From positions 190,296-254,295 of the forward strand of contig NZ_GL890985.1 of the NCBI RefSeq assembly GCF_000212815.1: 64,000 nt of DNA, in the 5' to 3' direction. Made by a program: the position numbers and the translations under genes. The stretch is from Streptococcus sanguinis SK49 (lineage in GTDB: Bacteria > Bacillota > Bacilli > Lactobacillales > Streptococcaceae). The notes under the pieces were generated by a model. The model did not search any database and was not told where the DNA came from. It worked only from the letters and a program-made list of their open reading frames with translations. Below are positions 38,902 through 44,761 of this stretch, piece after piece (within the stretch, counting starts at the first letter, position 1; each line of letters begins with the position of its first letter).

Positions 38902-40437
38902 ATGACTTTCAGGAAATTCCGCTTATTAATGTCAAAATACGGTTTCAGCATCATTATTATGCTGCTGGAGCTAGCCTTTGTCTTTGTTGCGTTCTTCTAT
39001 TTTAATGAGATTGCACCCAACTGGCTGTCAGTGGCGATGATTGTTTTCCTGTATATTGGGACTATTTTAGCGATTGTCAACCGCAATATGCCGCCTGAGA
39101 GTAAGGTGACTTGGCTCCTGATTGCTGTGGTGCCAGTCTTTGGCTTCCTGCTCTATCTGATGTTTGGCGAGCGGCGGCTGTCTAAAAAAGAAATGATCCA
39201 GCTGGAAAATATGGACTCTATGAAATTTCGAGAGGACAATAGCTATGAACTCCGTGTCCAGCTGAAAAAAGAAAACAAGTCAGCCTACGGTATTATCAAA
39301 TCACTGCTGAGTATGGACAATAATGCGGATGTCTATGACGGTACAGCTTCTCGCTATTTTCCTATCGGAGAGGAGATGTTTGAGTCCATGCTGGCTGATC
39401 TGCGGGCTGCTGAGAAATTCATTTTTCTGGAATTTTATATCATTGATGAAGGTCTGATGTGGGACAGTGTTCTGGAAATCTTGGTCGAAAAAGCTGCGCA
39501 GGGAGTTGAAGTCAAACTGCTCTATGATGATATTGGCTGCATGGCTACTTTGCCGGGTGATTATACGCGTAAGTTGCGTAAGATGGGCATCGAGGCTTAT
39601 AAGTTTAACAAGGTGATTCCGCGAATGACGGTATCCTATAACAACCGTGACCACCGCAAGATTTTGGTCATTGATGGTCAGGTTGGCTATACTGGCGGCA
39701 TCAATCTGGCTGACGAGTATATCAATCATATCGTTCGTTTTGGTCACTGGAAAGATGGCGGTGTGCGCTTGGAAGGTCGGGCGGTCAAGGCTCTGACGCG
39801 GCTCTTTCTCATGAACTGGTACATCAACCTCGGGGAAATCACAGATTTTGACAAGTACCATCTGGAAAATAAAGCTGTCGAAGGTCAAGGGCTATACATT
39901 CCCTATGGCAGCGGGCCTAAGCCTATTTATAAGGGTCAGGTTGGCAAAACAGTCTATCAAAATATCATCAGTCAGGCTACGGACTATGTCTACATTACCA
40001 CGCCTTATCTGATTATTGACTATGACCTGACGGAGGATATCAAGAATGCTGCTATGCGGGGAGTGGATGTCCGCATCGTGACTCCTTTCATTCCGGACAA
40101 GAAGCTGATTCAGATTGTTACCCGCGGAGCCTATCCGGATCTGATGGAAGCAGGGGTTAAGATCTTTGAGTACACACCAGGGTTTATCCACAGTAAGAAC
40201 GTGGTGGCTGATGATGAATTTGCTGTGGTAGGGACGATTAATTTTGACTACCGCAGTCTGGTGCACCATTATGAAAATGCAGTTCTGATGTACCATACGG
40301 AGAGTATCCCAGCTATCAAGGAAGATTTTGAAGCCATTTTTGAAGCTTCTGAGGAAATTCTTCCTGAAAATCTTGATAGCAGCTGGTATCGTCGCCTTAT
40401 CAAAGAAATCATGCAGCTCTTTGCACCTATGCTCTAA
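38902..40437 (+). CDS. cls: Cardiolipin synthase
   Basis: A membrane phospholipase D-type enzyme, 511 residues, condensing two phosphatidylglycerols to cardiolipin. Two N-terminal membrane helices (about 14-34 and 41-58), a third short one near 66-84, then two HKD motifs: H251 in 'HRKILVIDGQVGYTGGINL' and H430 in 'HSKNVVADDEFAVVGTINFD'. Length and order match Gram-positive Cls. Own promoter and terminator. Confidence 0.96.
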   Translation: MTFRKFRLLMSKYGFSIIIMLLELAFVFVAFFYFNEIAPNWLSVAMIVFLYIGTILAIVNRNMPPESKVTWLLIAVVPVFGFLLYLMFGERRLSKKEMIQLENMDSMKFREDNSYELRVQLKKENKSAYGIIKSLLSMDNNADVYDGTASRYFPIGEEMFESMLADLRAAEKFIFLEFYIIDEGLMWDSVLEILVEKAAQGVEVKLLYDDIGCMATLPGDYTRKLRKMGIEAYKFNKVIPRMTVSYNNRDHRKILVIDGQVGYTGGINLADEYINHIVRFGHWKDGGVRLEGRAVKALTRLFLMNWYINLGEITDFDKYHLENKAVEGQGLYIPYGSGPKPIYKGQVGKTVYQNIISQATDYVYITTPYLIIDYDLTEDIKNAAMRGVDVRIVTPFIPDKKLIQIVTRGAYPDLMEAGVKIFEYTPGFIHSKNVVADDEFAVVGTINFDYRSLVHHYENAVLMYHTESIPAIKEDFEAIFEASEEILPENLDSSWYRRLIKEIMQLFAPML

Positions 40438-40472
40438 TGCCGGAGGAGGGTAAGTTCTGCAGAAATATACAG

Positions 40473-40504
40473 AAAATCTGAGGCGGAAGTCTCAGATTTT
40501 TGTT
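40473..40504 (+). terminator. Terminator after cls
   Basis: AAATCTGAG (40474-40482) pairs with CTCAGATTT (40491-40499), then TTTTG. Confidence 0.8.
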
Positions 40505-40581: not shown

Positions 40582-40589
40582 TACGAATG
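40582..40589 (+). promoter_or_regulatory. Probable SigX/ComX (late competence) box
   Basis: TACGAATG, one base off the TACGAATA combox, preceded by the usual T-rich stretch (CTGTTTT). It lies 24 bases before the ATG of a 47-codon gene with AAAGGAA in between. Confidence 0.55.
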
Positions 40590-40613
40590 TAAAAAATAAA
40601 GGAATTTTTTAAG

Positions 40614-40757
40614 ATGATAATGGAGAAAATTTCCAGTCAGCCGCTTGCTTATGAAACGAGAGAATATCGCTGTTTTCGGGAATTGGAGGAGCTGGCTAGA
40701 AGCTATAATACTCAGAAGAAGGGGCAAGAGAAAGCTGACAGGAGGACAGGAATTTGA
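40614..40757 (+). CDS. 47-residue soluble protein, probably competence-induced
   Basis: A short frame starting 'MIMEKISSQPLAYETREYRC' and continuing with a charged helix ('FRELEELARSYNTQKKGQ') and basic tail. The ribosome site is AAAGGAA at 40598-40604. The SigX-like box upstream suggests induction during competence. In pneumococcus a late competence gene (ccs4) sits at the matching place between cls and nrdD, as I recall; whether this is its homologue needs alignment. Its stop codon overlaps the extended -10 of the next gene. Confidence 0.5.
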   Translation: MIMEKISSQPLAYETREYRCFRELEELARSYNTQKKGQEKADRRTGI

Positions 40758-40763
40758 TATACT
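40755..40763 (+). promoter_or_regulatory. Extended -10 promoter of the GT-C-like membrane gene
   Basis: TG-A-TATACT (-10 at 40758-40763), 33 bases before the ATG at 40796. Confidence 0.55.
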
Positions 40764-40795: not shown

Positions 40796-42343
40796 ATGCA
40801 TGATACAACGGAAGAAAAAGTTTTAGAGGTTTCAGAGGAGCAGCTGACTAGGGCTGAAAGGTCTGAGCAAAAAATTACCAAGCCAGAGCCTACGCCCTAT
40901 TTTTTGACGCTCTTGTGCAGTTTGGCTATCAGCCTGCTGAGTGTGGTCAATCCTTTTTTGACCAATCTAGCAACGAATTTACAAAGTCAGAACCTCTATG
41001 CCGGCTGGGCCATGACTCGGGGGCAGGTGCCTTATTCGCAAATATATGGGACTAGTGGTCTGCTTTACTATCTGATGGCTTGGACTAGCAGTCTGGCTTT
41101 TGGACAGCTTTTGTGGATGGTCTTTCAGACGCTGGCTCTGTGGCTGGCCGGACTTTTCCTGTACAAGACCTTGGTGCTCTTACAGCCTAAACAGGATTTA
41201 TCGCGCAGCCTCCTGCTGCTCTTTTACCTGCTAGTCTTTGCCCTTGGATTTGGCGGTCTTTATTCTAGTATTTTTGTTCTGCCCTTTATTTTTTGGAATC
41301 TATCTTTTTTGGTGCGCTATCTGCAGGATTCAATCAAGGATGAAAAGTTCATTCTTTATGGGGCTTTCGGAGCCCTTGCTTTTATGATTGATCCGGTTTC
41401 CAGCCTAGTCTTCTATTCTTTGACTGCTCTGGTACTTTTGGTCTACAATATCGCAGCCAAGCGTGCGGCTCGAGGCTTCTATCAGCTTTTAGCTGGTCTC
41501 TTTGGCTTCTCAGTGATTTTTTATCCTATTGGCTACTTTACTGTTGCCAATCAAACCTTTGGCCAAGCCATTAGTCAGGTGACCTATGCTTGGGATTCTA
41601 TTAGCTTGATTGGCAGTCATAGTCTTTCTAATTTGATTTATTATGGCTTGCTGACGGTCGGTCTAGGTTTCATTTCTGCTTTGGGTATCAATCTCTTTTC
41701 AAGAGAAAAGGGACAAGCAACTAGCTTGCGCGTCTTGCGCTTTATCGGTCTGCTAGGGCTCTTCATTACTGTCTTTGCGGCTTTTATCCTGCCAGATCAG
41801 GGCAGTTATCAACTGCTTCCGGCCCTACCTTTTGCCATGATTCTTTTTGCTTTGTGGTTCAATAAAGGCAAGCAGCAGGCACCAGGGCGTCATCGCCGGG
41901 ATCGCCGTCGTCCTACGATGTGGACTTCCTATCTCTCAGGCCAGTTCTTTCTGCCGCTCGTAGCCATTTTCTATCTGATTGGCTATCCTTTGGTGAATGA
42001 GTATATCCTTTCCAGCGGTGTCTCTGCTGAAAGAAGTGAGGCAGCTCAGTACATTAAGGAAAAGACCAAGGACGGGGATACTATCTATGCTTGGGATACC
42101 TCGGCTAGTCTGTATCAAAAGAGCGGCCGTCTATCTTCTGTCTCTCTCTTGTCTCCAACTTTGTATGTGGGAACGGCTGAAAATCGTTTGGGTCTTCAGA
42201 ATGGACTGGAAAACAGTCAGCCCAAGTATATTTTGGTTAACAATGATGTCAAACTGCTGTCGGATGTGAAACAGCTAATTTCCAAAAATTATAAAGAATC
42301 TGACCTCAAACTCGACCATTTCAAGCTTTATCAACTTAAGTAG
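40796..42343 (+). CDS. Multi-pass membrane protein, GT-C glycosyltransferase-like
   Basis: 515 residues from ATG 40796 (AAGGAGA upstream; an in-frame ATG at 40766 has no ribosome site). A charged cytoplasmic start of ~35 residues is followed by about 10-11 hydrophobic helices and a soluble C-terminal domain ('AAQYIKEKTKDGDTIYAWDTSASLYQ', 'KYILVNNDVKLL'). The segment 'AGWAMTRGQVPYSQIYGTSGLLYYLMA' and this tail are typical of PMT/ArnT-like lipid-linked sugar transferases. The usual catalytic Asp in the first outer loop is not obvious. Sugar and acceptor are unknown. Confidence 0.6.
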   Translation: MHDTTEEKVLEVSEEQLTRAERSEQKITKPEPTPYFLTLLCSLAISLLSVVNPFLTNLATNLQSQNLYAGWAMTRGQVPYSQIYGTSGLLYYLMAWTSSLAFGQLLWMVFQTLALWLAGLFLYKTLVLLQPKQDLSRSLLLLFYLLVFALGFGGLYSSIFVLPFIFWNLSFLVRYLQDSIKDEKFILYGAFGALAFMIDPVSSLVFYSLTALVLLVYNIAAKRAARGFYQLLAGLFGFSVIFYPIGYFTVANQTFGQAISQVTYAWDSISLIGSHSLSNLIYYGLLTVGLGFISALGINLFSREKGQATSLRVLRFIGLLGLFITVFAAFILPDQGSYQLLPALPFAMILFALWFNKGKQQAPGRHRRDRRRPTMWTSYLSGQFFLPLVAIFYLIGYPLVNEYILSSGVSAERSEAAQYIKEKTKDGDTIYAWDTSASLYQKSGRLSSVSLLSPTLYVGTAENRLGLQNGLENSQPKYILVNNDVKLLSDVKQLISKNYKESDLKLDHFKLYQLK

Positions 42344-42565: not shown

Positions 42566-44761
42566 ATGATTTTAAGGGAAGAGAAGTTTGAAACTGCTCC
42601 AGCGATTTATGTGGAGAAGCGGGATGGCCGCAGAGTGGCTTTTGATGTATCAAAGATTTATAAGGCTATGGTGCGGGCAGCTCAGGAAGTCGGTCCGTTG
42701 AATCCGATGCTGGAAGCCAAGCTGGAAGCTATCACAGACCGCATTGTGGCAGAAATCAGCAGTCGCTTCGCTAAGTATGTCAAAATCTATGAGATTCAGA
42801 ACATCGTTGAGCATGAGCTTTTGAATGCCAAGGAATATGCCATTGCAGAGAACTACATCACTTACCGCACCCAACGGGATTTTGAGCGTTCAAAAGCGAC
42901 TGATATCAACTTTACCATTGACAAGCTCCTCAACAAAGATCGCACGGTGGTCAATGAGAATGCCAATAAGGACAGCGATGTTTTCAATACCCAGCGGGAT
43001 TTGACAGCTGGGATTGTTGGCAAATCCATCGGCCTTAAGATGCTGCCGCCTCATGTGGCCAATGCCCACCAGAAGGGGGACATCCACTACCATGATTTGG
43101 ACTACAGCCCTTATACACCTATGACAAACTGCTGTCTGATTGACTTTGACGGCATGTTGAAAAACGGCTTCAAGATTGGCAATGCAGAAGTAGAGAGTCC
43201 CAAGTCTATTCAGACTGCGACAGCGCAAATCTCGCAGATTATTGCCAATGTGGCTTCCAGCCAGTACGGCGGCTGTTCGGCCGATCGGATTGATGAAGTC
43301 TTGGCGCCGTATGCTGAGCTTAATTACCAAAAGCACCTCAAGGATGCAGAGCAATGGGTTTTGCCGGATAAGCAGGAAGAGTACGCCTGGGCGAAGACCA
43401 AGAAGGACATCTACGATGCCATGCAGTCGCTAGAGTATGAGATCAATACCCTCTTTACCTCTAATGGTCAGACTCCTTTTACTTCGCTGGGCTTTGGTCT
43501 GGGCACCAATCGTTTTGAGCGGGAAATTCAGAAGGCCATTCTCAATATCCGTATCAAGGGATTGGGAAGCGAGCACCGCACAGCAATTTTTCCTAAGCTA
43601 ATTTTCACCCTTAAGCGTGGGCTCAATCTCGAGCCGGGAACGCCTAACTATGACATCAAAGAACTGGCTCTGGAGTGTGCCACTAAGCGCATGTATCCAG
43701 ATGTCCTCTCCTATGACAAGATTATCGACTTGACTGGTTCTTTCAAGGTGCCGATGGGCTGCCGTTCTTTCCTGCAAGGCTGGAAGGATGAAAATGGTCA
43801 GGAAGTCAATTCCGGCCGTATGAATCTTGGTGTCGTTACTGTCAATCTGCCACGGATTGCGCTTGAATCCGAGGGGAATTTGGATAAATTCTGGGAACTC
43901 TTTAACGAGCGGATGAATATCGCTGAAGATGCTTTGGTCTACCGAGTGGAGCGGACCAAGGAAGCCAGTCCAGCCAATGCACCGATTCTTTATCAGTATG
44001 GGGCTTTTGGCCAACGCTTGGGCAAGTATGATCAGGTAGACCAGCTCTTTATTCACCGTCGTGCAACGGTTTCCCTAGGCTATATCGGCCTGTATGAAGT
44101 GGCAGCAGTCTTTTACGGCGGTAATTGGGAGACTAATCCAGAAGCCAAGGACTTTACGGTTGCTATTGTCAAAGATATGAAGCGTCGGGTGGAAGAGTGG
44201 TCAGATCAGTATGACTATCATTTCTCTGTTTACTCAACGCCATCTGAAAGTCTGACCGATCGCTTCTGCCGTTTGGATACAGAGAAGTTTGGCATCGTTC
44301 CAGACATTACTGACAAGGAGTACTATACTAACTCCTTCCACTACGATGTGCGCAAGAATCCAACACCTTTTGAAAAGCTGGACTTTGAGAAGATTTATCC
44401 TGAAGTGGGAGCCTCAGGTGGCTTTATCCATTACTGTGAATATCCTGTGTTGCAGCAAAATCCCAAGGCACTGGAAGCTGTTTGGGACTATGCCTATGAC
44501 CGGGTTGGCTATCTGGGAACCAATACACCGATTGACCGTTGTTACAAGTGTAACTTTGAGGGAGATTTTACGCCGACCGAGCGGGGCTTCACCTGTCCAA
44601 ACTGTGGCAACAGCGATCCCAAGACGGTTGATGTGGTCAAGCGGACCTGCGGTTACTTAGGAAATCCGCAAGCCCGTCCAATGGTCAATGGCCGACACAA
44701 GGAAATATCAGCTCGGGTCAAGCACATGAATGGCTCGACTATTAAGTACGAAGGAAATTAA
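42566..44761 (+). CDS. nrdD: Anaerobic ribonucleoside-triphosphate reductase (class III)
   Basis: A glycyl-radical enzyme making dNTPs without oxygen, 731 residues from ATG 42566. The N-terminal ATP-cone allosteric domain is 'IYVEKRDGRRVAFDVSKIYKAMVRAA'. The C-terminal zinc site is 'CYKC' and 'CPNC', and the radical glycine is about G696 in 'RTCGYLG'. It is activated by NrdG at the end of the same operon. Candidate NrdR boxes lie at its promoter. An in-frame start at 42527 lacks a ribosome site. Confidence 0.96.
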   Translation: MILREEKFETAPAIYVEKRDGRRVAFDVSKIYKAMVRAAQEVGPLNPMLEAKLEAITDRIVAEISSRFAKYVKIYEIQNIVEHELLNAKEYAIAENYITYRTQRDFERSKATDINFTIDKLLNKDRTVVNENANKDSDVFNTQRDLTAGIVGKSIGLKMLPPHVANAHQKGDIHYHDLDYSPYTPMTNCCLIDFDGMLKNGFKIGNAEVESPKSIQTATAQISQIIANVASSQYGGCSADRIDEVLAPYAELNYQKHLKDAEQWVLPDKQEEYAWAKTKKDIYDAMQSLEYEINTLFTSNGQTPFTSLGFGLGTNRFEREIQKAILNIRIKGLGSEHRTAIFPKLIFTLKRGLNLEPGTPNYDIKELALECATKRMYPDVLSYDKIIDLTGSFKVPMGCRSFLQGWKDENGQEVNSGRMNLGVVTVNLPRIALESEGNLDKFWELFNERMNIAEDALVYRVERTKEASPANAPILYQYGAFGQRLGKYDQVDQLFIHRRATVSLGYIGLYEVAAVFYGGNWETNPEAKDFTVAIVKDMKRRVEEWSDQYDYHFSVYSTPSESLTDRFCRLDTEKFGIVPDITDKEYYTNSFHYDVRKNPTPFEKLDFEKIYPEVGASGGFIHYCEYPVLQQNPKALEAVWDYAYDRVGYLGTNTPIDRCYKCNFEGDFTPTERGFTCPNCGNSDPKTVDVVKRTCGYLGNPQARPMVNGRHKEISARVKHMNGSTIKYEGN

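Follow-up and report, generated by a model that had tools for sequence, protein, structure and literature searches.

Gene organization of the locus

The window analysed here is a stretch of 64,000 nt from the genome of Streptococcus sanguinis SK49. Between the cardiolipin synthase gene cls and the anaerobic ribonucleotide reductase gene nrdD it carries a 47-codon ORF, referred to below as orf47, and a gene for a GT-C-like membrane protein (Table 1). The ORF is preceded by a SigX (cin) box, TACGAATG, and a ribosome site, the gap between box and ATG being 24 nt; a second ATG at 40620 is possibly an alternative start. A terminator-like hairpin parts the ORF from cls; two terminator-like sites were found, against 0.5 in shuffled sequences. 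The original prediction had placed here a short gene with a SigX box in front of it, which was borne out by the pairing of box and ORF across species and by the dN/dS ratios of the ORF core, both presented below.

Table 1. Features of the cls–nrdD region, with positions counted from the first nucleotide of the window
Feature	Position	Strand	Basis
cls, cardiolipin synthase, upstream neighbour	38902..40437	+	TIGR04265, 347.8 bits (cut-off 290)
Terminator-like hairpin 3' of cls	40472..40501	+	13-pair stem and T tail
SigX (cin) box TACGAATG with T-rich lead-in	40582..40589	+	Sequence reading and cross-species comparison
Ribosome site AAAGGA	40598..40603	+	Sequence reading
47-codon gene, orf47 family (ATG at 40614, TGA at 40755-40757)	40614..40757	+	Orthologues, profiles, dN/dS
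Promoter of the GT-C-like gene: CTGACA, 17 nt, TATACT with TG extension	40735..40763	+	Within the 3' end of orf47, overlapping its stop
GT-C-like membrane protein, likely Ccs4 orthologue	40796..42343	+	8 TM-like segments, Arg-rich stretch, agreement with published features of Ccs4
nrdD, anaerobic ribonucleotide reductase, downstream neighbour	42566..44761	+	NF006732, 1198.5 bits

Identity of orf47 and ccs4

The 47-codon gene had initially been taken for ccs4, a name that could not be kept. Published Ccs4 is a membrane protein with 8–10 passes and an Arg-rich stretch, -RGRSARRSRRE- (PMC6177246), and since these features match the GT-C-like protein and not the 47-residue product, ccs4 is very probably the gene that follows the 47-codon ORF. 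In the window, the GT-C-like protein is 515 residues long, with 8 TM-like segments and a stretch rich in Arg. Of its counterparts in 20 further genomes, none carries the published peptide unchanged; those of G253 and G271 read RGRSVRRRRRE, identical to it at 9 of 11 positions, and contain 10 and 11 TM-like segments, respectively. Ccs4 (SP_0200), the product of the adjacent and probably co-induced gene, differs from Orf47 in being a multi-pass membrane protein. With the name corrected, the meningitis phenotype reported for Ccs4 belongs to this adjoining membrane protein. According to PMC6177246, deletion of ccs4 had previously been reported to leave transformation unchanged. The same source describes Ccs4 as specific to the mitis group, against which relatives of the GT-C-like gene occur in 284 of 284 Streptococcus genomes.

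In S. mitis, a non-annotated and uncharacterized gene of 46 aa has been described upstream of ccs4. Its ATG comes 19 nt after TACGAATA, and it is induced by CSP in two strains; SSA_2233, SMU.2076 and spr0181 (orf47) are named as its orthologues (PMC6001120). The ORF of the window shares its place directly upstream of ccs4, its SigX box and its short length, and is homologous to the S. mutans ORF at the same place; it matches this published gene (orf47/SSA_2233). The account of the 46-aa gene in PMC6001120 differs from ours in apparently describing no family, motif, distribution or embedded promoter for it. A figure legend in PMC5069739 states that SSA.2233 is not homologous to SMU.2076, in conflict with PMC6001120; the profile described below puts the ORFs that S. 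sanguinis and S. mutans have at this locus into one family, the assignment of the locus tags to these ORFs being assumed. PMC5069739 also lists SMU.2076 among the induced S. mutans genes that are possibly not induced in other species.

In S. pneumoniae D39V, the probable orthologue is SPV_2121, a member of the ComX regulon that stands directly before the ‘Secondary’ gene SPV_0186 in Table 3 of PMC6560143. It is named there only as a ‘hypothetical protein’, and its link to the orf47 family comes from the order of genes in that table and not from sequence. In the literature searched, SPV_2121 was met in the main text of PMC6560143 only.

The SigX box in a single genome

Taken alone, the box is not beyond chance and proves nothing. 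With at most one mismatch allowed, TACGAATA has 45 matches in the window; shuffled sequences give 35.7 ± 5.3, and 5 of 100 of them attain 45. For TTTTNCGAATR, the genome as a whole has 24 sites, and the reversed pattern used as a control has 35. The box of the window ends in G and the consensus TNCGAATA in A. As evidence by itself, the box was therefore discarded. Judged by sequence comparison, what is beyond chance is the occurrence of box and ORF together at one place across species, plus purifying selection on the core of the ORF.

Several of the 24 genomic TTTTNCGAATR sites directly precede a gene, and many fall within long ORFs. Five of the ORFs behind such sites were named by eye as comEA, coiA, radC, dprA and comGA; the site of the window, in the same genome, is therefore of the same kind. 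At another locus of this genome (L255), TTTTACGAATA lies 13 nt before an ORF that resembles dihydroorotase (pyrC) by eye, possibly a further SigX target.

Co-occurrence of the box and the ORF in Streptococcus

The GT-C-like gene, present in all 284 Streptococcus genomes, served as the anchor for a comparison of 139 upstream regions, drawn from 80 genomes picked non-randomly from the listed matches, from 21 loci and from 38 named loci. The family ORF was scored by its protein motif, without consulting the box, and was found in 107 regions. In this sample, in which many regions come from the same species and are not phylogenetically independent, TNCGAAT[AG] stands within 500 nt of ccs4 in 105 of the 107 regions with the ORF and in 0 of the 32 without it; counting distinct sequences only, the box accompanies the ORF in 90 of 92 cases, against 0 of 32. 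The two ORF-positive exceptions (L140 and L148) have TTCGAATT in its stead. Half of the ORF-negative regions (16/32) are named loci, namely six of S. parasanguinis, three of S. australis, one of S. xiaochunlingii and six of Streptococcus sp.; another of the 32, from genome G053, has the ORF and the box farther upstream. A box with a T-rich lead-in upstream of the gene, and its conservation together with the gene across species, are two marks of SigX-regulon membership that were found here; a third, induction by competence peptide or ComX, is published for orthologues (PMC6001120, PMC6560143).

At loci L066, L069, L139, L146, L149, L183-L185, L188, L190, L194, L196-L202, L204, L206, L207, L210 and L211 just 7 nt separate the com box from the ATG, which would leave the mRNA almost leaderless.

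The Orf47 protein family

At E ≤ 1, a search with the protein of the window found matches in 39 of 197 genomes; 11 of them are near-identical (≥91%, own genome included), ten have 33–47% identity and the remainder are weaker. At the loci of the best 21 of these 39 matches, the GT-C-like gene adjoins the ORF in all 21, and cls is also present in 20, the exception being L003. A profile of 20 rows (A2) matched 243 of 284 Streptococcus genomes at E ≤ 1, many of the matches with E > 0.1 looking like chance, and 218 of 284 at E ≤ 0.01, together with 2 of 51 other Streptococcaceae, both of a second genus designated g10. At E ≤ 0.01 the wider profile A4 (31 rows) again matched 218 of the 284, S. mutans included, and left 66 of them without a match. 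With the wider profile, 8 of the 51 other Streptococcaceae matched at E ≤ 0.1, two of them strongly and six more weakly (best E = 0.002). A search across the order matched 20 of 246 genomes at E ≤ 0.001, of which 19 are Streptococcus and the outsider (G516, E = 6e-4) is taken as chance.

The family has a member in S. mutans. Its genome (G234), which we take to be S. mutans from its ComS sequence, matched profile A2, in which it has no row, at E = 5e-4, and profile A4, which includes it, at E = 9e-14. At this locus, MKTKESLTQQEKKFLKDYDRKSLHHFRDILTYCFILDKLTNK follows TACGAATA and precedes the GT-C-like gene. The ORF also precedes the GT-C-like gene in 28 of 30 divergent loci, the other two being those of g10, and TNCGAAT[AG], counted by eye, lies near the ORF start in 25 of these 28 streptococcal loci. 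Among 20 further loci from lower in the match list, the GT-C-like gene is present in 18.

In the 31 diverse members aligned in A4, a single residue, F, is invariant; it is followed by [RKY]-[EDQ]-[ILV] and, in the majority, preceded two positions earlier by H, so that the usual motif of the family is H-x-F-[RKY]-[EDQ]-[ILV]. Ahead of it the majority consensus is E-E-x-x-F-L-x-x-Y. The first half of the protein is divergent in the S. sanguinis and S. cristatus types. Nei-Gojobori dN/dS over 26 core codons was 0.08, 0.39, 0.19, 0.17, 0.29 and 0.22 in six groups of sequences; in a seventh, almost invariant group it was 0.98, with just 3 synonymous changes. These values point to purifying selection on the core of the ORF in six of the seven groups. 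No NCBIfam model matches the family, Pfam gave four matches only, each of a single member and all to unrelated families, and a search of PDB sequences gave no match pointing to a function.

A second genomic context in genus g10

The family was found in two of the twelve g10 genomes searched, in both away from ccs4. In one (G326) the orf47 member stands before an aminotransferase-like gene, near codY; in the other (G325) its tail overlaps an MFS-transporter-like ORF on the opposite strand, both ‘-like’ names coming from sub-threshold NCBIfam scores. Both ORFs begin 7 nt after TTTT[AT]CGTAT[AG]. The pattern TTTTNCGTATR occurs 27 times in G326 and 32 times in G325, against 16 and 15 for the reversed control. 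Inspection of 30 of these 59 places showed that many are not before a gene; among them are the starts of comEA, dprA, radC and dut, for each of which NCBIfam confirmed one instance, as well as starts read by eye as coiA and a prepilin peptidase (no NCBIfam match). In these two genomes, then, orf47 groups with the late com genes although it does not neighbour ccs4.

The box itself differs in this genus: several late com genes of g10 are preceded by TTTT[AT]CGTAT[AG], often with GAGCAAA or AAGCAAA ahead of it, where Streptococcus has TNCGAATA.

An embedded ccs4 promoter and the probable product of the SigX transcript

Taken together, these comparisons lead us to regard the 47-codon ORF as a real late-competence gene under SigX control, a reading of its identity and regulation to which we assign a probability of roughly 85%. 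It rests on the box, the coding constraint, the family, the promoter embedded in its 3' end and the second genomic context; induction is known from published data on orthologues. On this reading, orf47 is a little noticed late-competence gene that is conserved across most of the genus and has no Pfam or NCBIfam model.

The stop of the 47-codon gene had been predicted to overlap the promoter of the next gene, and its TGA does lie within the extended -10 element, formed by TATACT at 40758-40763 with TG before it. The arrangement is widespread. Among 67 distinct 3' ends drawn from the 107 ORF-positive regions, a count that leaves S. mutans and pyogenic-type members outside, 62 contain [CGT]TGACA, exactly 17 nt and TATA[ACT]T with TG before it, and in 42 of these 62 the -35 element starts 20 nt before the stop codon. 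The presence of the ccs4 promoter in the 3' end of orf47 would account both for an apparent C-terminal motif and for the weaker, ‘secondary’ induction of ccs4. The motif, ‘KAD..F’, was rejected as a protein motif, being mostly the ccs4 promoter read as codons. In genome G166 (L070), an earlier stop shortens the Orf47 protein relative to its near relatives and drops this tail, the embedded promoter DNA remaining intact. Deletions of orf47 could disturb ccs4 because of the promoter in its 3' end, and would need careful design.

Co-induction of the next gene, also part of the original prediction, agrees with published RNA-seq of the probable pneumococcal orthologue pair (PMC6560143, Table 3). In D39V, the ComX-induced SPV_2121 shows log2 fold changes of 4.6, 4.4 and 0.6 at 3, 10 and 20 min, and SPV_0186 shows 2.4, 2.3 and 0.1 at the same times, its ‘Secondary’ label standing for read-through or an additional start (PMC6560143).

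Such co-induction allows another reading, in which the SigX transcript serves only to boost ccs4, the small frame being no more than a leader peptide or a spacer. The location of orf47 upstream of ccs4 in those streptococcal loci examined that have it, a few weak matches aside, is in line with this, as is the probable co-induction of ccs4 (PMC6560143). We nevertheless consider it improbable: by sequence, ccs4 has a conserved promoter of its own within the ORF, the core of the ORF is under purifying selection, the g10 gene stands behind a com-type box without being beside ccs4, and ccs4 persists in genomes without an adjoining ORF. Still less probable is that the product is an RNA, that is, a SigX-driven small RNA. 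A short transcript is to be expected, and DNA conservation is strong in the 3' part of the locus, but the ccs4 promoter explains this conservation, the core is conserved as protein around the invariant F, and Rfam gave nothing for this stretch above a gathering score, a single weaker match to part of a human lncRNA (E = 0.3) being taken as chance. That the 47-codon gene is Ccs4 itself, for which the shared neighbourhood from cls to nrdD and the reported competence induction of both genes could be invoked, can practically be dismissed in view of the membrane topology and Arg-rich peptide of published Ccs4 (PMC6177246) and of the placement of the 46-aa gene upstream of ccs4 (PMC6001120).

If orf47 is a SigX-regulated gene, as we favour, RNA polymerase with SigX would start at TACGAATG and produce a short mRNA encoding a protein of roughly 40 residues. 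Read-through would add to the expression of ccs4, which would otherwise be transcribed from its own promoter, embedded in the final codons and the stop of orf47.

Predicted structure and possible role of Orf47

The product had been predicted to be a small charged helix. With AlphaFold2, the S. intermedius member is modelled as a confident two-helix hairpin (helices 7–18 and 24–41, pLDDT 87, pTM 0.63), and the window protein as short helices and one long helix at 21–44, with low confidence (pLDDT 69, pTM 0.33). A search of PDB folds gave 3 matches (best E = 7.6), none of which tells a function. Sda of Bacillus is a small helical-hairpin inhibitor. It resembles Orf47 in size and in the predicted two-helix shape, but is absent from the Pfam and PDB sequence matches listed for Orf47 and from its listed fold matches.

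From the small size of the protein, the lack of a signal or membrane segment by eye and the conserved polar residues beside F, we tentatively suggest that Orf47 binds another protein. The product would be a cytosolic two-helix hairpin, engaging its partner for the few minutes of competence and probably tuning cell physiology or the exit from competence, not DNA uptake. A more far-reaching proposal, which we regard as speculative and rather unlikely as a whole, is that Orf47 is a core streptococcal competence effector whose hairpin would, for as long as competence lasts, bind and restrain some housekeeping machine, be it of the cell cycle, a kinase or RNA polymerase, and which would have been kept under the competence sigma factor despite changes of com box and locus and lost with the box in lineages no longer self-competent.

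No study of an orf47 deletion was found in the literature searched, which left out most subscription papers. S. parasanguinis FW213 is highly transformable once ComX is supplied (PMC13101493), and the ORF is missing upstream of ccs4 in all six S. parasanguinis loci examined, among which FW213 does not appear by name; orf47 is therefore probably dispensable for DNA uptake.
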